This document shows positions 4,376 to 39,945 of a stretch of DNA of 39,945 nucleotides, piece by piece. Position 1 is the first letter of the stretch; each line of letters opens with the position of its first letter. Source of the DNA: a virus; the IMG/VR virus record IMGVR_UViG_3300046003_005931, positions 1 through 39,945 of that record, one strand, 5' to 3'. The notes under the pieces are model-generated. The model did no database searches and had not been told where the DNA came from. It saw nothing but the letters and a program-made list of their open reading frames with translations. The position numbers and the translations under genes were made by a program.

Positions 4376-6124
4376 ATGAGTTATAAAAACATAGTCACTA
4401 CATCTTTAGGTAAAAACCGCCATAATATTACTTTATGGACAGATGATGGAGTAGAACAGTATGAATTTCAGAATTACGCCTATGAAAAATGCTATGAAAA
4501 AGACTCAACTCATGTTAGTTTAAAAGGTGATCCTTTAAAAAAAGTTACATATTGGGAACGTGATAATCCTTTTATCTATTACCATGATATGCCTATTCAT
4601 CAAAAATTCTTAATTGATAAATATGGTATTAATGATGAACCTTCAACTACACATAAAGAAATATTTTTCGATATTGAGATCGAGATGGGAGGTGCTCTTA
4701 CACCTGATTATATCAAAAGAGCACCTAAACCTGTCACTTCAATTGCTTGGTGGTACAAACAAGAAGATAAATGGTATATTTTAATTTTAGATAAAGAAAA
4801 TAAAATTGAATCCACAATTATAGGTAATAAACAAATTATCTCTGTTCCTAATGAAAGAGAATTATTAACTAAATGGTTAAATTATTTAAATAAAGTACAA
4901 CCTGATATTTTAATAGGATATAATAGTGATTATTTTGATATACCTTATCTATACTGGAGAATATATCACCAATTAGGTGAACGTAAAGCAAATTCATTCT
5001 CTCCAATAGGTTCTGTTAAGGAACCTTCATTTCAAGGTACAGATGGTAATACAATTTATAACCCTGATCAGCCAATTAGGATTGAAGGTTTATACTCTTT
5101 GGATTATATTCGTTTACATAAAAAATATTCAATGTCTGATGAACCTTCTTATAAATTAGATGCGTTAGGTGAAAAATATTGTAAATTAGGTAAAATTGAA
5201 TATGAAGGTAGTTTAGATAGGTTATTTGCAACTGATAAAGAAAAATTTATTGAGTATAACTTTCGAGATGTTGAAATCTTAAAAGCGTTAGACGCTAAAT
5301 TTAATTATATTGGTTTAACTAAGAACTTAGCACATAAAGGTAAAATTCATTATGATGATGTTTACCAATCATCTAAAATCCATGATGGTGCTATTTCAGC
5401 TTACCTTTTATCTGAAGGTATAGTTCCACCATCTAGAGATAGAAATCTTGTAAGTAAAAAAAATTATGCTGGTGGTTATTTATTTTGCCCTAAAGCAGGT
5501 TTATACCGCTATATGTTTGATGAAGATTTAACTTCATTATACCCTTCAATTATTATGTCTTTAAACATTGGTAAGGAAACATTAGTAGGTAGAATATTAG
5601 ACTTTAATGATAGAAATAATAGATTAGGTTTAAATGATTTACAAGCAGACACAGAAGATCAACATAGAAATATGGAATGGTTTACTAACCAAAACAAATT
5701 CAATAAAATTGATTGGACAAGCTCAAAATTAGTTAAACTTCTCTTACAATATAATTTGGCTATATCAGCAAATGGTGTTATATTTCGAACTGATAGCCCA
5801 TCTGTATTATCTACTATATTAGCAAAATGGTTTGATGAAAGAGTTTTATATAAAAACTTAATGAAAAAAGCTTATAAAGCTGGTGATACTGTAGGTGGTG
5901 AAAAATATCATTTAATGCAATACACTATGAAGATTTTATTAAATAGTTTATATGGTGCAACTGCTTTACCTAAATTTAGATATGGTAATGTAATTTTATC
6001 AGAAGCTATTACATTAAGTGGTCAACGTATTATCCAAGAATCAGCATTATGTGCTAATCGTCACATGAATAAAATTTTAAAAAATGATAAATTTAAAGAA
6101 GAATTTATAAAGTCTTTAACATAA
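4376..6124 (+). CDS. family-B DNA polymerase, N-terminal part (exonuclease and motifs A, B)
   Basis: This is the first 582 aa of a T4 gp43-like replicative polymerase. The 3'-5' exonuclease is complete: Exo I FFDIEIE with Asp99 and Glu101, Exo II GYNSDYFDIP with Asp188, Exo III YNFRDVEIL with Tyr294 and Asp298. The polymerase domain follows with motif A DEDLTSLYPS (Asp384), a basic helix with Arg489, and motif B KILLNSLYG (Lys519, Asn523, Tyr526). The frame then stops at TAA, before motif C, which is in the gene at 6452-7387. Together the parts total 893 aa, close to T4 gp43 (898). The last residues (KFKEEFIKSLT) appear native, so this looks like an established split rather than a fresh frameshift. 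Confidence 0.93.
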   Translation: MSYKNIVTTSLGKNRHNITLWTDDGVEQYEFQNYAYEKCYEKDSTHVSLKGDPLKKVTYWERDNPFIYYHDMPIHQKFLIDKYGINDEPSTTHKEIFFDIEIEMGGALTPDYIKRAPKPVTSIAWWYKQEDKWYILILDKENKIESTIIGNKQIISVPNERELLTKWLNYLNKVQPDILIGYNSDYFDIPYLYWRIYHQLGERKANSFSPIGSVKEPSFQGTDGNTIYNPDQPIRIEGLYSLDYIRLHKKYSMSDEPSYKLDALGEKYCKLGKIEYEGSLDRLFATDKEKFIEYNFRDVEILKALDAKFNYIGLTKNLAHKGKIHYDDVYQSSKIHDGAISAYLLSEGIVPPSRDRNLVSKKNYAGGYLFCPKAGLYRYMFDEDLTSLYPSIIMSLNIGKETLVGRILDFNDRNNRLGLNDLQADTEDQHRNMEWFTNQNKFNKIDWTSSKLVKLLLQYNLAISANGVIFRTDSPSVLSTILAKWFDERVLYKNLMKKAYKAGDTVGGEKYHLMQYTMKILLNSLYGATALPKFRYGNVILSEAITLSGQRIIQESALCANRHMNKILKNDKFKEEFIKSLT

Positions 6125-6186: not shown

Positions 6187-6450
6187 ATGGCACTAAAAGG
6201 ACAATCAATTAGAAACGGGGTTAGTATCACTCTAAATGGGGAGAAAGTTGAAAAAGCTGAGGTTATTACTTTATCTCAAGACTGGAATGAATCCCAAGAA
6301 AAATTCTTTAAAAAGATGTTACAACAAGGGGGTAAATGTAAAGTTAATGGAAATTCTTTTGAAATAATACTCAAAGAAAGAACAGATATAGACTCAAGAG
6401 GGAATAAACCAGTTAATTTACCACCAGTACCAGGAGAAAGAACATTTTAA
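6187..6450 (+). CDS. unknown 87-aa protein inserted between the two polymerase parts
   Basis: The ORF starts at a TGTTATG context typical of this genome and ends one base before the ATG of the polymerase C-part. The product (QSIRNGVSITLNGEKVEKAE, then WNESQEKFFKKML and a second short beta region) looks like a small alpha/beta protein ending in PGERTF. It shows no zinc finger, GIY-YIG, HNH or LAGLIDADG motif, so it is not an obvious homing endonuclease, the usual cause of split phage polymerases. It could be a polymerase accessory protein or cargo that arrived with the promoter. I recognise no family. Confidence 0.8.
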   Translation: MALKGQSIRNGVSITLNGEKVEKAEVITLSQDWNESQEKFFKKMLQQGGKCKVNGNSFEIILKERTDIDSRGNKPVNLPPVPGERTF

Positions 6451-6451
6451 T

Positions 6452-7387
6452 ATGAAGCATTTAGAAGATACTCCATGGTGGATTTGTGATGAAGATGATT
6501 TTAACTTCTGTGCTTATGTAGATACTGACTCTAATTATTTTAATGCTGAACCTTTATTAAAACATCTATATCCTGATTTTGAAACTAAAACAGATCAAGA
6601 AAAAGATGATATATTAGAGAAAGTAGCTCTCAAATATCAAGATATTATAACTGAGTATTATGACATTTTAGCTAAAGAAGCATTTAATGTTTCTACTCAT
6701 AGATTAGAAATGAAAACTGAAGCTGTTATTCGTTCTGCTTACTTTAGAGCAACTCGAAGATATGCTCAATGGATTACTAAGAAAGAAGGTAGAGCTGTAG
6801 AGGAACTCGATATAAAAGGATTAGAATTTAAAAAAGCTAATTTCCCTAAATATTTTGGAGTATTTTACCAAAATCTATTAGAGTTAATTATCAAAGGTAC
6901 ACCTCAATCAATTATTGATAAACAAATATCCGATTTTAGAGCAGAAGCAACTTCACCTAATGTAGATTTTTGCTTAATTGGTAATCCAACATCAGTTAAA
7001 GTATTAAACGATTATGTTGAATCAATTCCTAAACCTGGTAAAATACTATCTATCCTTAAAAAAGGAGCAGGTGCTAATATTAAAGCAGCTACTTGTTATA
7101 ATGACTTGTTAAGGTTTTGGAGTTTAGATAAAGATTATAGTCAAATAGTACAAGGTGATAAAATAAAATGGGTATATTTGAAAGATAACCCATATAAAAT
7201 GGAAGCAATTGCTTTTATGGAATTTGATATGCCTGATAAAATTAAAGACTTTATTAATGAGTATATTGATAGAGATAAGAGTTTTCAAACAATATTACAA
7301 AATAAATTACAAGGATTTTATACAGATCTGGAATGGATACTTCCACCAAGTAATCCTAATATTTTTAAATTTTTCACATTCTCATAA
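6452..7387 (+). CDS. family-B DNA polymerase, C-terminal part (motif C and thumb)
   Basis: The 311-aa protein holds the missing half of the polymerase: motif C YVDTDSNYF at residues 22-30, with catalytic Asp24 and Asp26, then palm and thumb regions (LEMKTEAVIRSAYFRATRRY and ELDIKGLEFKKANFPKYF, like the KxY-type motif of T4-like polymerases). The C-terminus IFKFFTF resembles the hydrophobic tail that T4 gp43 uses to bind its sliding clamp. The clamp gene starts 3 bases after this stop. It must join the N-part, which lacks motif C, to form an active site. It has no metal-binding exonuclease residues of its own. Confidence 0.93.
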   Translation: MKHLEDTPWWICDEDDFNFCAYVDTDSNYFNAEPLLKHLYPDFETKTDQEKDDILEKVALKYQDIITEYYDILAKEAFNVSTHRLEMKTEAVIRSAYFRATRRYAQWITKKEGRAVEELDIKGLEFKKANFPKYFGVFYQNLLELIIKGTPQSIIDKQISDFRAEATSPNVDFCLIGNPTSVKVLNDYVESIPKPGKILSILKKGAGANIKAATCYNDLLRFWSLDKDYSQIVQGDKIKWVYLKDNPYKMEAIAFMEFDMPDKIKDFINEYIDRDKSFQTILQNKLQGFYTDLEWILPPSNPNIFKFFTFS

Positions 7388-19773: not shown

Positions 19774-20443
19774 AAAAATAGCATTATGTATATCAGGAAA
19801 GTCAAGAAGTTCTATGTTTTGTTTTCCTTATATCTATGATGCGTTTATAAATAATAATTATAATGTTGATGTTTTCATCCATACTTGGGATGAGTGTAGG
19901 GTTATAGATTTATATAATCCTAAAAAATTAGAAATTGAAAATGAACAAGAAGTTTTAAATTCTATAATTCCTCAATTAAATTTAGAAAATATTAAAATAG
20001 AAGGAAATATTGGTAATAATATATTAATGTATTATTCTATTAAAAAGTGTTTTAATTTGATAGATGATACTTATGATATTGTAATTAGAAGTAGATTTGA
20101 TTTATTATTACAACCCAAATTTGATATAATTCCAATAATAACTGATTTAAATTTAAAAAAATATGACATTTATATTCCAAATGAATCCTTCAATATGGGT
20201 GGATATAATGATCAAGTAGCAATAGGGACCTATAATTCTATGAAAAGTTATTCAGATACTATTTTAAATTTAAATGAATTTGCAAATAAGTTAAGAAGAT
20301 GGCATCCTGAAACTTTTCTAAAGAAACAATTAGATGATAATAATATAAAAGTAAATCAAACTGATTTAGATTATAGATTAGTTAGAAATGTCTCTGCCAC
20401 CACACATTGGCCAGAAAATCCTTATAAATTCTTAAACTTATGA
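19763..20443 (+). CDS. glycosyltransferase-like protein (paralogue of 22242-22949)
   Basis: The 226-aa protein begins KIALCISGKSRSSMFCFPYI and has DVFIHTWDE near residue 38 and YDIVIRSRFDLLLQP near residue 100. The same three blocks occur, in order, in the protein at 22242-22949 (IALCFYGQPR, DVFIHTWWS, YDLVIRARFDLLI), so the two are paralogues within the cassette. The RxRFDLL block supplies an acidic residue where GT-A enzymes keep DxD. Similar proteins appear in capsule and LPS clusters and in giant-virus glycan loci. I call it a probable glycosyltransferase. Confidence 0.7.
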   Translation: MDNKKIALCISGKSRSSMFCFPYIYDAFINNNYNVDVFIHTWDECRVIDLYNPKKLEIENEQEVLNSIIPQLNLENIKIEGNIGNNILMYYSIKKCFNLIDDTYDIVIRSRFDLLLQPKFDIIPIITDLNLKKYDIYIPNESFNMGGYNDQVAIGTYNSMKSYSDTILNLNEFANKLRRWHPETFLKKQLDDNNIKVNQTDLDYRLVRNVSATTHWPENPYKFLNL

Positions 20444-31117: not shown

Positions 31118-31138
31118 AAGCTTGGTTTTGCCAAGCTT
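31118..31138 (+). terminator. intrinsic terminator AAGCTTGG/CCAAGCTT with T tract
   Basis: Perfect 8-bp stem with a TTTTG loop, followed by TTTTTT counting the last stem Ts (31137-31142). The clearest intrinsic terminator in the window. Confidence 0.85.
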
Positions 31139-31152
31139 TTTTCGTATATTTA
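31121..31152 (+). promoter_or_regulatory. promoter overlapping the terminator (CTTG-N20-TATATTTA)
   Basis: CTTG at 31121-31124 (in the stem), a 20-nt spacer of the hairpin and T tract, and TATATTTA at 31145-31152. Confidence 0.65.
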
Positions 31153-31181
31153 AGTATTATTAATTTAAAACAACAAAGGTT

Positions 31182-31325
31182 ATGATAAGATTAAAAATAT
31201 CAATTAGCAGAAGTAAATACTTTGATAATCAAAAACAATTAGCAGAGTTCTTGAATATAAAAAATAGTAGTAAGAAAGCTATAGAAACTAGAGCAAGAGT
31301 ATTATCAATGGAAGTTGAATTTTAA
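31182..31325 (+). CDS. small basic protein (47 aa)
   Basis: I find this ORF from the promoter at 31121 and the GGTTATG start context. The product (MIRLKISISRSKYFDNQKQL, then AEFLNIKNSSKKAIETRARV) is basic and probably beta then helical. No family recognised. It lies 10 bases before the next start. Confidence 0.65.
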   Translation: MIRLKISISRSKYFDNQKQLAEFLNIKNSSKKAIETRARVLSMEVEF

Positions 31326-34394: not shown

Positions 34395-34413
34395 AATAGG
34401 ATTCGTATATTTA
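34382..34413 (+). promoter_or_regulatory. promoter inside the ligase 3' end (TTTG-N20-TATATTTA)
   Basis: TTTG at 34382-34385 in the last ligase codons, a 20-nt spacer and TATATTTA at 34406-34413; ATG at 34441. Confidence 0.8.
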
Positions 34414-34440
34414 AGTATTATTAATTTAAAAATAGATAGT

Positions 34441-34662
34441 ATGTCAAATTTTCCATCAAGGGTTAGTATTATAGAAAAGTTTATTCAAACTGAAATTGAT
34501 AAAAATAATTCATCTCCTGAGTATATTGATGCCTTAAATGAATGTGAAACGTTAGAGGATTTAGTTTATGAAGTTGGTAGTTGGAAGAGTGAAAGAGTAA
34601 TGGAGGGTTATTTAAGTACTGCTCATTACATTTTAATGAGTTTAGATAAAGAGTATAATTAA
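34441..34662 (+). CDS. hypothetical protein (73 aa)
   Basis: Acidic helical protein (SIIEKFIQTEIDKNNSSPEY, then EALNECETL-like acidic helix and TAHYILMSLDKEYN). No family recognised. First of three small genes that share the promoter at 34382. Confidence 0.7.
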   Translation: MSNFPSRVSIIEKFIQTEIDKNNSSPEYIDALNECETLEDLVYEVGSWKSERVMEGYLSTAHYILMSLDKEYN

Positions 34663-34977: not shown

Positions 34978-35005
34978 GCTTTAGGGTTTTTAATTCGTAT
35001 ATTTA
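34974..35005 (+). promoter_or_regulatory. promoter (ATAG-N20-TATATTTA)
   Basis: ATAG at 34974-34977 overlapping a stop codon, a 20-nt spacer ending ATTCG and TATATTTA at 34998-35005; ATG at 35035. Confidence 0.7.
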
Positions 35006-35034
35006 AGTATTATTAATTAAAAAAAGAAAATGTT

Positions 35035-35832
35035 ATGAGTTTAAAAGCGTTATCGAGAGAGGAATTAACTAAGTTAGCACCTCAAGTATTTAATCATGTT
35101 GTTAGTTCAAATTTAACTAGCAAGTATGTACATATTCCAACTGATACTATAGTTGATGATATGGAAGCATTAGGATGGTTACCATATGATGTTAAAACAG
35201 TTAAAACTAGGAAGAAAACGTCCGCAACTGCAAAACATTTAATTCAGTTTTTTAATCCTGAAATTGTAATTAACAATGAGGAAGGTAAAGCTGATATGTA
35301 TCCAAGTTTATTATTAATCAACTCACATGATGGTTCAACAGCGGTTAGGTTTGAAATGGGAGTATTTAGAATTGTTTGTGAAAATGGGTTAGTTATTAAA
35401 TCTGAAGACTTTGGAGGGTTTAAAATGAGACATATGGGTTACTCATTTGAGGATTTACGCAATTATATTGGCGAGTTAGTGAACACACTACCAACAATGG
35501 TGGAAAATCTTAACAAATTCTCACAAGTTGAAATGACACCTGAACAGCAATATGAATTTGCTATTAAAGCTGTTGAAGCTAGATTTGGGGAAGAAAAACA
35601 AATACCTGATGAGGAAATTAAAAACTTATTAATAGCTGAACGAAGAGAAGACATCGGTAACTCAGTTTGGGTTGTGTTAAATAGAGTTCAGGAAAAATTA
35701 ACAAGTGGTGGGTTTGGTTACTTAAATGCTAAAGGTAAACCAAGAAAAGCAAGAGCTGTTAAAAACTTCACACAGGATGTGAGCATGAATCAAAAGTTAT
35801 GGGCAATTGCTGAAGAGTATGTTGCAGTATAA
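35035..35832 (+). CDS. DUF932 family protein
   Basis: The 265-aa protein shows the DUF932 pattern of phage and plasmid proteins: a central LLLINSHDGSTAVRFEMGVF, RIVCENGLVIKSEDFGGFKM, with the conserved CxNGL core, and a downstream helical region where the family keeps VWVVLNRVQEKLTSGG. The function is unknown; relatives lie near replication and recombination genes. It is a one-gene unit between a promoter and a composite terminator-promoter. Confidence 0.85.
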   Translation: MSLKALSREELTKLAPQVFNHVVSSNLTSKYVHIPTDTIVDDMEALGWLPYDVKTVKTRKKTSATAKHLIQFFNPEIVINNEEGKADMYPSLLLINSHDGSTAVRFEMGVFRIVCENGLVIKSEDFGGFKMRHMGYSFEDLRNYIGELVNTLPTMVENLNKFSQVEMTPEQQYEFAIKAVEARFGEEKQIPDEEIKNLLIAERREDIGNSVWVVLNRVQEKLTSGGFGYLNAKGKPRKARAVKNFTQDVSMNQKLWAIAEEYVAV

Positions 35833-35900: not shown

Positions 35901-36044
35901 ATGAAAATGAAAGTAGTGCAATTCACAATGCAAGAAATTTGGGCCGCGTCACGACATACTGTTCAAAAGAATAAAAAGAAGTATGATCGTAAAGAAAAAC
36001 ACAATAAAAAGGACTCTAATAAGGGTCCTTATTTAGTTTGTTAG
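35901..36044 (+). CDS. small basic protein (47 aa)
   Basis: The ORF starts at ATG 35901 after the composite promoter. The product (MKMKVVQFTMQEIWAASRHT, then a VQKNKKKYDRKEKHNKK tail) is very basic with a helical start, like small nucleic-acid-binding proteins. The hairpin at 36009-36030 falls within its last codons and its TAG is the -33 box of the next promoter, so the real gene may be shorter. Moderate confidence. Confidence 0.55.
   Translation: MKMKVVQFTMQEIWAASRHTVQKNKKKYDRKEKHNKKDSNKGPYLVC
36009..36030 (+). terminator. hairpin terminator within the end of the 35901 gene
   Basis: AAGGACTC/GGGTCCTT, 8 bp with one T-G pair and a TAATAA loop, followed by ATTTAGTTTG. Confidence 0.65.
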
Positions 36045-36072
36045 GCTTATAAAAATAAATTTCGTATATTTA
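36041..36072 (+). promoter_or_regulatory. promoter (TTAG-N20-TATATTTA)
   Basis: TTAG at 36041-36044 overlapping the stop codon, a 20-nt spacer ending TTTCG and TATATTTA at 36065-36072; ATG at 36097. Confidence 0.8.
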
Positions 36073-36096
36073 AGTATAATTAATAAATAGAATGTT

Positions 36097-36384
36097 ATGA
36101 AAACAGCTCAAATGAATGAGTCACAATATGTTGAGGAAAGAATCAATCAAGCTATAGGTATTTTAAAAAATCTAACTTGGAATGATAATTGTGTTGATGG
36201 AGAAACAATGCAATATATACTTGAACAAGTAGGAATGCAAGACCAAATGTTAAGACAATTAATGATGTCTCAACCGATAGATGAGGTTAGGTACATATTT
36301 GATGAGAGAGAAGAATTAGAAGACGATAAGGTTAATTATTGTGGGGCATGTGGTAGTGATGCTTCCAATTGTGATAGTTGTTAA
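36097..36384 (+). CDS. hypothetical protein with Cys-rich tail (95 aa)
   Basis: Acidic helical protein (QYVEERINQAIGILKNL, then MQYILEQVGMQDQMLRQLMM) ending in a possible zinc site: YCGACGSDASNCDSC with four Cys in C-x2-C and C-x2-C form. The tail could bind a metal or act as a redox site. No family recognised. Followed 18 bases later by another gene on the same transcript. Confidence 0.7.
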   Translation: MKTAQMNESQYVEERINQAIGILKNLTWNDNCVDGETMQYILEQVGMQDQMLRQLMMSQPIDEVRYIFDEREELEDDKVNYCGACGSDASNCDSC

Positions 36385-37164: not shown

Positions 37165-37168
37165 TGTA

Positions 37169-37200
37169 TTTGGCTTATAAATTTTAAATTCGTATATTTA
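37169..37200 (+). promoter_or_regulatory. promoter (TTTG-N20-TATATTTA)
   Basis: TTTG at 37169-37172, a 20-nt spacer and TATATTTA at 37193-37200; ATG at 37226. Confidence 0.8.
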
Positions 37201-37225
37201 AGTATAATTTAAAAAAATAAAGGTT

Positions 37226-37972
37226 ATGATGAGAATTCAAGTATTAGAAGAACAAAAACAAGTCTTCGTAGATCAAAAAAATGAATTAGAAGAAGCTAGA
37301 TCTGATATCTATGTAAGAAAGGAACAAGCAATGAGTGATGCTTTACTTCCTCTTTTTGAAGGGTTCCACCCAGACGCTTACATTGAGGTAACAAGAGGGT
37401 CTATTTATTTTAAAATGGACCATCCCGAATTGAGTTACAGGAAAGAATTATTTACTCTTTATTTAAGAGAAAGATATTTTGAGGAAGGACAACGTTATAA
37501 TGGGGTTGATTTATCTTATTATACAACTTCAACAAAAGGAGATGATGAATGGGAATTAAAGAGATTGAGAATATTAGGTGATGCAGCTGAGGTTGTATTG
37601 AAAGATCAACATCACATAATTGACACTGCTAATTACACTTCAAATCTTTTTAAAGATGAATTCAAAAGGAGTTATGATCAAATGAACCTAATAAATAAAG
37701 GTATTGGAGAATTAACTGACCGAATAAATGTACTCAAATCAGAAGCAACATTAACACAATTATTATCTGAAGATGGAGTATTATTTGACATACCACAACA
37801 TATAGAATTAAAACGTACTTACTGCCCAAAACTAAATAAAATCAGAATAATTGAAGTTAAAGGTAAAACATGTACAGTTGAGATTGAAATGGGTAGTGGT
37901 TATAAAACAACTGAGACAAGAGTGAATATTGAAAGTTTAGTTAGTCAAGTTAAACGTTATAATATATTGTAA
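37226..37972 (+). CDS. hypothetical coiled-coil protein (248 aa)
   Basis: A charged protein with a long N-terminal coiled coil (about residues 3-40: IQVLEEQKQVFVDQKNELEE and onward), a middle domain (FHPDAYIEVTRGSIYFKMDH), a second helical stretch (about 150-180) and a beta-rich C-terminus (KIRIIEVKGKTCTVEIEMGS). It is the largest unknown product in the last 5 kb. No motif tells its function. It forms a single unit between a promoter and a strong hairpin. Confidence 0.8.
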   Translation: MMRIQVLEEQKQVFVDQKNELEEARSDIYVRKEQAMSDALLPLFEGFHPDAYIEVTRGSIYFKMDHPELSYRKELFTLYLRERYFEEGQRYNGVDLSYYTTSTKGDDEWELKRLRILGDAAEVVLKDQHHIIDTANYTSNLFKDEFKRSYDQMNLINKGIGELTDRINVLKSEATLTQLLSEDGVLFDIPQHIELKRTYCPKLNKIRIIEVKGKTCTVEIEMGSGYKTTETRVNIESLVSQVKRYNIL

Positions 37973-38000: not shown

Positions 38001-38003
38001 TTA

Positions 38004-38035
38004 TTTGGTTTATTGAATAATAATTCGTATATTTA
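38004..38035 (+). promoter_or_regulatory. promoter (TTTG-N20-TATATTTA)
   Basis: TTTG at 38004-38007, a 20-nt spacer and TATATTTA at 38028-38035, placed just after rather than inside the terminator; ATG at 38060. Confidence 0.8.
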
Positions 38036-38059
38036 AGTATAATTTAAAAATATAATGTT

Positions 38060-38245
38060 ATGATGAATGTAGCTTATTTTATTGACCAAGCCGAAGCTAG
38101 TACACAACAGAAATTTAATAATGATTGGAATGACATCATTATTTATCGTGATGATAGTTCAACAAACCTAATAACTGAGAATATGAAGCATCTCACCTTA
38201 AATTGGAAAGATGGAAAATATATTAATTATAGTATTGGCTTATAA
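38060..38245 (+). CDS. hypothetical protein (61 aa)
   Basis: A small, mixed protein (MMNVAYFIDQAEASTQQKFN, then DWNDIIIYRDDSSTNLITEN). No family recognised. The -33 box of the next promoter overlaps its last codons. Confidence 0.65.
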   Translation: MMNVAYFIDQAEASTQQKFNNDWNDIIIYRDDSSTNLITENMKHLTLNWKDGKYINYSIGL

Positions 38246-39181: not shown

Positions 39182-39340
39182 ATGGAGACAACTAAACCCA
39201 TTTGGAGTAAAATAGGCACAGAAAAGGAACCTGATGTTTATAAAAATATTAAAGATGAAGACATAGATATTTTAATTAAGGATTTTGACTTAATTGGGGA
39301 TGAGTTTGATTATGAATTAGGTTACGATGATGAATATTAA
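39182..39340 (+). CDS. small acidic protein (52 aa)
   Basis: Starts one base after the previous stop. The product is acidic (METTKPIWSKIGTEKEPDVY, then a D/E-rich middle and a GDEFDYELGYDDEY end). No family recognised. Cotranscribed with the 71-aa acidic protein. Confidence 0.65.
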   Translation: METTKPIWSKIGTEKEPDVYKNIKDEDIDILIKDFDLIGDEFDYELGYDDEY

Positions 39341-39372
39341 TTTGGCTTATTAAAATAAGATTCGTATATTTA
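39341..39372 (+). promoter_or_regulatory. promoter (TTTG-N20-TATATTTA)
   Basis: TTTG at 39341-39344 directly after a stop codon, a 20-nt spacer and TATATTTA at 39365-39372; ATG at 39395. Confidence 0.8.
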
Positions 39373-39394
39373 AGTATAATTTAAAAAAATAATT

Positions 39395-39585: not shown

Positions 39586-39774
39586 ATGAAAAATTTAGAT
39601 TATGATTTAATTGATAATGTAGTATTTGGTGGAGTTGATCCGGATGATTATCCTGATTTTTGTGACGCGTATATTGAAAGTGCTGATTATAATGGAGTGG
39701 AAATGACTGAAGCTCAATTAGAACTATTAGATATAGGTTATTGGCATGATGATATTATACAATCTTGTTTTTAA
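39586..39774 (+). CDS. acidic hypothetical protein (62 aa)
   Basis: Acidic protein (DYDLIDNVVFGGVDPDDYPD, then FCDAYIESADYNGVEMTEAQ) with a TEAQLELLD helix. It is the last protein gene in the window, 40 bases before the tRNA-like element. Unknown function. Confidence 0.7.
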   Translation: MKNLDYDLIDNVVFGGVDPDDYPDFCDAYIESADYNGVEMTEAQLELLDIGYWHDDIIQSCF

Positions 39775-39796
39775 AATAATTGTTACATATTCTCTT

Positions 39797-39811
39797 GCAT
39801 TTTTGAAATGC
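39797..39811 (+). other. short hairpin GCATTT/AAATGC before the tRNA-like element
   Basis: 6-bp stem with a TTG loop, followed by GTTT. It could be a weak terminator for the 39586 gene or a processing signal for the RNA that starts 4 nt later. Confidence 0.4.
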
Positions 39812-39814
39812 GTT

Positions 39815-39893
39815 TACTGTGAAGCTTAAGTTGGCTAAAGCGCACGGTGCCGAAAGGGGCCGAGAGGACGTTGGTTCGAGTCCAACCACAGTA
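39815..39893 (+). tRNA. tRNA-like element with GNRA-capped anticodon arm
   Basis: Acceptor stem TACTGTG (39815-39821) pairs with CACAGTA (39887-39893), 7 of 7. D-arm GCTT/AAGC with a 10-nt GG-containing loop. T-arm GTTGG-TTCGAGT-CCAAC (39870-39886) is canonical. The anticodon-arm position (39843-39864) has no 7-nt loop: CACGGTGCC and GGGGCCGAG form a nearly continuous helix with mismatches A39844-A39863 and G39849-G39858, closed by GAAA. The variable loop is AGGAC. Base 8 is A instead of T; no CCA is encoded. It looks like a tRNA body without a readable anticodon, so aminoacylation or decoding is doubtful. An unusual tRNA, pseudo-tRNA or mimic are all possible. Confidence 0.55.
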
Positions 39894-39945
39894 TCAAATC
39901 ACCGGTCACTGTAAATGGCTCCACAGTGCGATGCATAGCATGGAA

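Follow-up and report, generated by a model that had tools for sequence, protein, structure and literature searches.

For 50 years it has been known that phages encode tRNAs, which, to our knowledge, have no agreed purpose. tRNA-like RNAs in which other RNA replaces the anticodon arm are already known from tmRNA and from engineered scaffolds; a natural, multi-copy, hypervariable phage family of this sort would be new as a class. Like tmRNA (clan CL00001), the phage units described here have a tRNA-like end and other RNA in the place of the anticodon arm; however, they match no tmRNA model, lack G3-U70, are far shorter, occur in many copies per genome and keep a full D arm, and no tag frame was recognised in them. 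Engineered tRNA scaffolds (Ponchon and Dardel) reportedly leave the tRNA body intact except for the anticodon arm, into which a cargo RNA is inserted, an arrangement shared by the phage units, whereas the latter are natural, multi-copy and hypervariable. mascRNA and bacterial YrlA are likewise tRNA-like RNAs without decoding; nevertheless, mascRNA is one short, conserved RNA and YrlA has differently placed ends. The only Rfam family that the phage units matched was RF00005. Canonical phage tRNAs (RF00005) share with the units the acceptor, D and T arms, the T-loop, the U-1 and C74 marks and the location in tRNA arrays, but the units lack the 7-nt anticodon loop, have from 5 to more than 100 nt of additional or substituted RNA and score low or not at all against tRNA models. 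Moreover, it has been proposed that phage tRNAs use changes in the anticodon loop to resist defences that deplete tRNAs (PMC10264068); such loop-mutated tRNAs, which evade anticodon nucleases, resemble the units in their altered anticodon region and in a possible conflict with defence, although loops are changed there, whereas the whole arm is gone here. No description of a family of this kind was found in Rfam 15 or among the open-access full texts consulted.

The window, that is, the whole stretch of DNA analysed, is a complete 39,945-base IMG/VR contig of class 'linear', and the tRNA-like unit sits 52 bases from its right end (Table 1). The initial annotation had described 39815-39893 as a tRNA-shaped RNA without an anticodon, unable to decode normally, and its limits, each element of its anatomy and the reading itself are borne out. 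The unit has the acceptor, D and T arms and the canonical T-loop of a tRNA body, together with U-1 and C74 (position 48 is C and position 73 is U). A strict body scan, which called for a 7/7 acceptor, a 4/4 D arm with a GG loop and a 5/5 T arm with a TTCRANY loop, matched the window only at this unit; 300 dinucleotide shuffles of the full-length window contained no match. The anticodon position reads CACGGTGCC-GAAA-GGGGCCGAG, with A.A and G.G mismatches and one U-G pair; no register yields a 7-nt anticodon loop with U33 on the 5-bp stem of a canonical tRNA, so that the better-scoring normal loop considered as a counter-argument in the initial annotation does not exist. ARAGORN found neither tRNA nor tmRNA anywhere in the window, Rfam gave nothing at gathering score, tRNA and tmRNA models included, and a permissive Rfam scan (E<=10) of the last 246 bases yielded no tRNA or tmRNA match. 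An RNAfold-type check, also proposed earlier, had a divided outcome: the unit folded alone reaches its minimum free energy (-26.8 kcal/mol) with the D and T arms rearranged, as opposed to -24.3 for the cloverleaf, and thus the case for the cloverleaf rests on the comparative evidence that backs it, not on energy.

Table 1. Coordinates of the tRNA-like unit and of neighbouring features in the window
Feature	Position	Strand	Remarks
Acceptor stem, 5' strand, UACUGUG	39815-39821	+	7/7 pairs with 39887-39893; two compensatory pairs relative to L045
D arm, GCUU-AAGUUGGCUA-AAGC	39824-39841	+	4/4 pairs; A14, G18G19 and A21 in the loop; unchanged in L045
Replaced anticodon arm, 9-step helix CACGGUGCC/GGGGCCGAG	39843-39864	+	A.A and G.G mismatches; GAAA tetraloop at 39852-39855; unchanged in L045
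Variable loop, AGGAC	39865-39869	+	5 nt, normal; single substitution in L045
T arm, GUUGG-UUCGAGU-CCAAC	39870-39886	+	5/5 pairs, canonical T-loop; L011 has GTGGG/CCCAC, compensatory
Acceptor stem, 3' strand, CACAGUA	39887-39893	+	Pairs with 39815-39821
N73-N76, UCAA	39894-39897	+	N73-C-A-A tail, as on normal tRNAs of these phages
Downstream hairpin, CACUGU/ACAGUG	39907-39928	+	In the linker interrupted by the contig end
62-aa ORF immediately upstream of the unit	39586-39774	+	Marks the syntenic position in L009
TTCGTATATTTAA motif sites	31137-31187, 34401-34450, 34987-35038, 36041-36106, 37167-37229, 38002-38063, 39340-39392

The proteins of the window include PolB, a clamp loader, GroEL, QueE, an ATP-dependent ligase and DUF932, and both the proteins and their order resemble those of Flavobacterium phage vB_FspM_immuto_2-6A (GroEL 54% and DUF932 40% identity), which has T4-like head genes; this likeness suggests that the host of the window phage is probably Flavobacterium or a relative. 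The cultured phage (NC_055915.1, L297) itself carries an anticodon-replaced unit at 20247-20329; its acceptor, T arm and CCAA tail recur in a unit of the window relative G007, but the inserts of the two differ. This unit is annotated as tRNA-Cys, a probable mis-annotation, and ARAGORN and Rfam find nothing there. The Family B DNA polymerase of the window is split (4376-6124 and 6452-7387, successive parts of phrog_262, 30-570 and 565-844), with an 87-aa ORF (6187-6450) between the two ORFs. A motif around TTCGTATATTTAA, probably the early promoter of the phage, precedes many small ORFs and is present in numerous copies in relatives.

Related contigs were reached through the neighbouring proteins of the window. 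Window positions 39593-39801 align with 12716-12930 of L009, a 168-kb relative, at 87%; the alignment ends 14 bases before the window unit, and a tRNA-like unit starts at the syntenic point of L009 (12945). It has other D and T arms, the acceptor UGUUGUG and a CAAA-capped stacked helix replacing the GAAA hairpin, and it scores 40.4 bits against RF00005, with the 17-position anticodon arm of the model skipped over 30 nt. The independent contig L045, to which the second unit of L009 led, contains a near-identical window unit but with the acceptor of L009: there are five differences in 79 nt, four of which constitute two perfect double compensations in the acceptor (from window to L045, A-U to G-C at 2:71 and C-G to U-A at 3:70). 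The L011 unit was picked up through RF00005 and its neighbourhood, not through an acceptor search. It has the arm AUCGGUCC-GAGA-GGGCCGA, a 6-7-bp helix with a GNRA cap; its acceptor is another one, paired throughout, and its T stem is compensated. It scores 38.4 bits against RF00005, and the anticodon arm is skipped or stretched in the matches of both L009 and L011. Covarying homologues, which the initial annotation had named as evidence to look for, are thus present in related phages, in the acceptor of L045 and the T stem of L011, and its argument against random decay is sustained by the compensatory acceptor pairs of L045 and the GNRA-capped hairpin kept in L011. Comparison of the four contigs indicates that the GNRA-capped arm is conserved in three of them (window, L045 and L011) and that modules (acceptor, arm, T arm) are exchanged between relatives.

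A first strict pattern for the window unit gave no matches. A GNRA-type unit pattern matched 23 contigs, tRNA-like in the L045 and L011 contigs only and lacking tRNA-like surroundings in the rest, and the window D arm used as a probe found L045 only, apart from a coincidental L296 match that reads as coding sequence. Two or three tandem units with structured linkers are present in L009, L010, L012 and L045, a stretch that is lost at the contig end in the window; downstream of the position of the window unit, L009 and L010 carry such linkers plus a second tRNA-like unit. Very short tRNA-like units (about 59 nt), in which acceptor and T arm are separated by about 20-28 nt, were observed in L045 (about 650-700, with an encoded CCA), L009 (13076-13134) and L010 (19324-19382), in the last two after the conserved hairpin GGATCTGCAGGTCC. 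L007, a phage with a 71-aa protein in common with the window, has a degenerate tRNA-like sequence at 460-528 (loop GGTGAAA, no U33, 17.4 bits to RF00005).

The window unit has its own acceptor, not the AGTCAGG scaffold, and is linked through L009 and L045 to a large family. Units of L012 and L055 have the common acceptor AGUCAGG/CCUGACU and entirely different middles, and several of them combine a tRNA-Leu-like D arm with the T arm ACAGG-UUCGAAU-CCUGU. The family was gathered with a pattern for the 3' part (T arm/acceptor), which gave at least 120 loci, and a scan of all loci collected found at least 185 distinct units on one acceptor/T-arm scaffold in at least 118 loci; since this pattern was used for the collection, selection accounts for some of the constancy of that part, and the pattern-independent evidence for a shared scaffold comes from L055 (four units), L012 (two), L047 and L048. 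Acceptors other than AGUCAGG also occur. Among the matches listed, units nearly always measure 53-190 nt (one 258-nt reading is a double unit), the inserts, 20-170 nt long, form about 140 clusters, ARAGORN is silent on 137 of the 185 units, and a loose anticodon-loop test is passed by only 16 of the 164 with a recognisable D arm. Rfam reads family units as damaged tRNA at most: RF00005 was the only Rfam 15 family matched at gathering score in five rich loci, and permissive scans of two loci added sub-threshold matches only. An identity with GOLLD, ROOL or Y RNA (YrlA) was rejected, given no Rfam 15 match in the window or the loci scanned. Up to seven units occur per fetched locus, and one 9.5-kb stretch (L261) contains 11 units alternating with 25 normal tRNAs. 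Many units per genome within tRNA arrays, and no integrase among the 20 window proteins examined, leave the role as an RNA end or attachment site, suggested in the initial annotation, without support.

The family belongs to phages of (mostly) Bacteroidota, in which tRNA bodies of this kind appear to be numerous and each to have an insert of its own. In GTDB genomes the pattern matched no more than ten stretches, of which five bear the names of Bacteroidota MAG contigs; at least one of the others, L257, carries a unit also present in a 173-kb relative of the window, which makes it likely that the GTDB matches are binned viral contigs. The sole long phage match to the joined scaffold ends, MT835602.1, is an ordinary tRNA-Leu and was set aside, and Bacteroides phage DAC16 gave three tRNA matches of ordinary length, with no unusual unit seen.

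U-1 and C74 are marks of RNase P and 3'-end processing. Among the matches listed, U-1 is found in 82% of units vs 72% of normal tRNAs from the same contigs, and C74 in 184 of 185 family units (99%) vs 251 of 255 normal tRNAs (98%), CAA being the commonest 74-76 triplet in the normal tRNAs of related contigs. Since the marks are like those of normal tRNAs, the units would seem to carry the same processing code as functional tRNA genes. Moreover, the final insert base is U in about 85% of the units among the matches listed, as expected for the 15:48 tertiary pair, and thus the tRNA elbow is probably kept. A protein of the CCA-adding/poly(A)-polymerase family is encoded in two unit-carrying contigs (G010:C1:152731-153138 and G049:C1:238094-238513). 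Inserts form slightly more stable folds than controls taken upstream (mean z -0.57 vs -0.06, p=1.5e-6), a modest signal, and many of them may be largely unpaired; within related inserts, compensatory changes affect 3 of 6 pairs in group A and 4 of 12 in group C.

These features bear on whether the units could be tRNA pseudogenes, decayed after recombination in tRNA arrays. They do lie in and near such arrays, and a few (e.g., L177 tRNA-Lys and L213 tRNA-Leu) present the same scaffold with a normal-looking anticodon arm. Nevertheless, instead of the loss of pairing constraint expected of a pseudogene, two compensatory pairs are found among the five differences between the window and L045, and paired changes within inserts; the processing marks are retained as in functional tRNAs, units are many per genome, and inserts are conserved among related phages. 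This origin is very unlikely. A small intron of a new kind, spliced out of the anticodon arm to give a normal anticodon, is likewise very unlikely. Exon ends that rebuild an anticodon stem are not seen in the family: a common stem closing the insert, sought at any spacing, gave 302 closures vs 306 expected, no exon-like insert ends were found apart from U48, and the normal tRNA set is nearly complete already in such phages. However, the anticodon arm is a frequent site of tRNA introns, and the window unit alone would fit a loop insertion, as its change, shared with L045, amounts to 5 extra nt in the anticodon loop closed by 4/5 pairs.

A search for a common insert motif by k-mer enrichment gave weak signals only (GAGTGG, GGAGTGG). 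A role as antisense guide was rejected: for 116 inserts, the longest complementary stretch, whether to two Bacteroidota 16S loci or to the locus of the insert itself, was no better than that of shuffles, and no target or partner emerged. As an anecdotal observation, ACCTCC, like the anti-Shine-Dalgarno end of 16S rRNA, occurs in one recurring insert (L133, 787; L141, - strand, 3530; L175, - strand, 6134).

LeuRS, SerRS and AlaRS do not need the anticodon, and the units could be aminoacylated tRNA-like RNAs that either work in the manner of tmRNA or tie up EF-Tu or a synthetase. The insert is located where tmRNA has its extra domains, and the dominant scaffold has a tRNA-Leu-like D arm, with A73 in 170 of the 185 units and U48 in most (among the matches listed). 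In contrast, neither ARAGORN nor Rfam gives a tmRNA model match, 3:70 is C-G in the window unit and U-A in the AGTCAGG scaffold rather than the alanine-marking G-U, and the window unit has U73. A role of this kind, aminoacylated and tmRNA-like, is distinctly unlikely as an explanation overall; the Leu-like scaffold is a possible candidate for it, the window unit less so.

Of 13 related contigs, 3 carry a T4 Rnl1-type RNA ligase, an enzyme classically associated with repair of the damage done by anticodon nucleases. Together with the hypervariability of the inserts, which suits an arms race, and with the proposal on phage tRNAs against tRNA-depleting defences (PMC10264068), this is consistent with a decoy or antidote against tRNA-cutting or tRNA-sensing host defences such as anticodon nucleases or VapC-like toxins, in which the body would be bound with no loop to cut and the enzyme titrated. 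The initial annotation had proposed bait for such nucleases or for tRNA-modifying enzymes, or protein binding, as possible functions. Known anticodon nucleases, however, read the anticodon loop, which is absent here, and a decoy would be expected to copy that loop, whereas the inserts have no common stem or loop; a decoy function is considered unlikely.

The preferred reading, which is held to be rather probable, is that the window unit is a phage-encoded, tRNA-processed non-coding RNA whose tRNA body is a scaffold for maturation and stability and whose insert is the working part. At the level of DNA, the comparisons establish a tRNA body with a replaced anticodon arm, acceptor pairing kept by compensation, and a large family with constant bodies and diverse inserts. 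Because the unit belongs to a very large family with a hypervariable replaced arm, it is better described as a 'tRNA scaffold carrying a cargo domain' than as a 'tRNA with tetraloop'. The unit would be transcribed together with the upstream gene block, RNase P would trim it at the U-1/+1 junction, and its 3' end would be finished (CCA) like those of the real tRNAs of the phage; the tRNA body could serve as processing signal, stabiliser and disguise. Since the body is unable to decode, the insert must act in some other way, and it would be the acting part that binds a host protein or RNA. Host takeover or counter-defence through such binding is the likeliest role, because the inserts have diversified like arms-race parts. 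Scaffolding for stability alone leaves unexplained the choice of a tRNA body over any stable hairpin. A wider proposition, about evenly poised between right and wrong, is that large Bacteroidota phages have a hitherto undescribed class of natural tRNA-scaffolded RNAs, a multi-gene family with host-matured bodies in which the anticodon arm gives way to interchangeable, fast-diversifying domains, each of which acts on some factor of the host, be it in defence, translation or takeover.

If this is true, hundreds of phage 'tRNAs' would not decode, and part of the phage tRNA complement would not be about translation. Annotation tools miss or mislabel such units, as with the 'tRNA-Cys' of the immuto phage, and the presence of one unit in a cultured Flavobacterium phage makes the family experimentally accessible. 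The family would give laboratory tRNA-scaffold RNA expression a natural precedent and counterpart, and would represent a ready-made collection of natural tRNA-scaffolded RNAs; through their targets, new mechanisms of defence or takeover could come to light.
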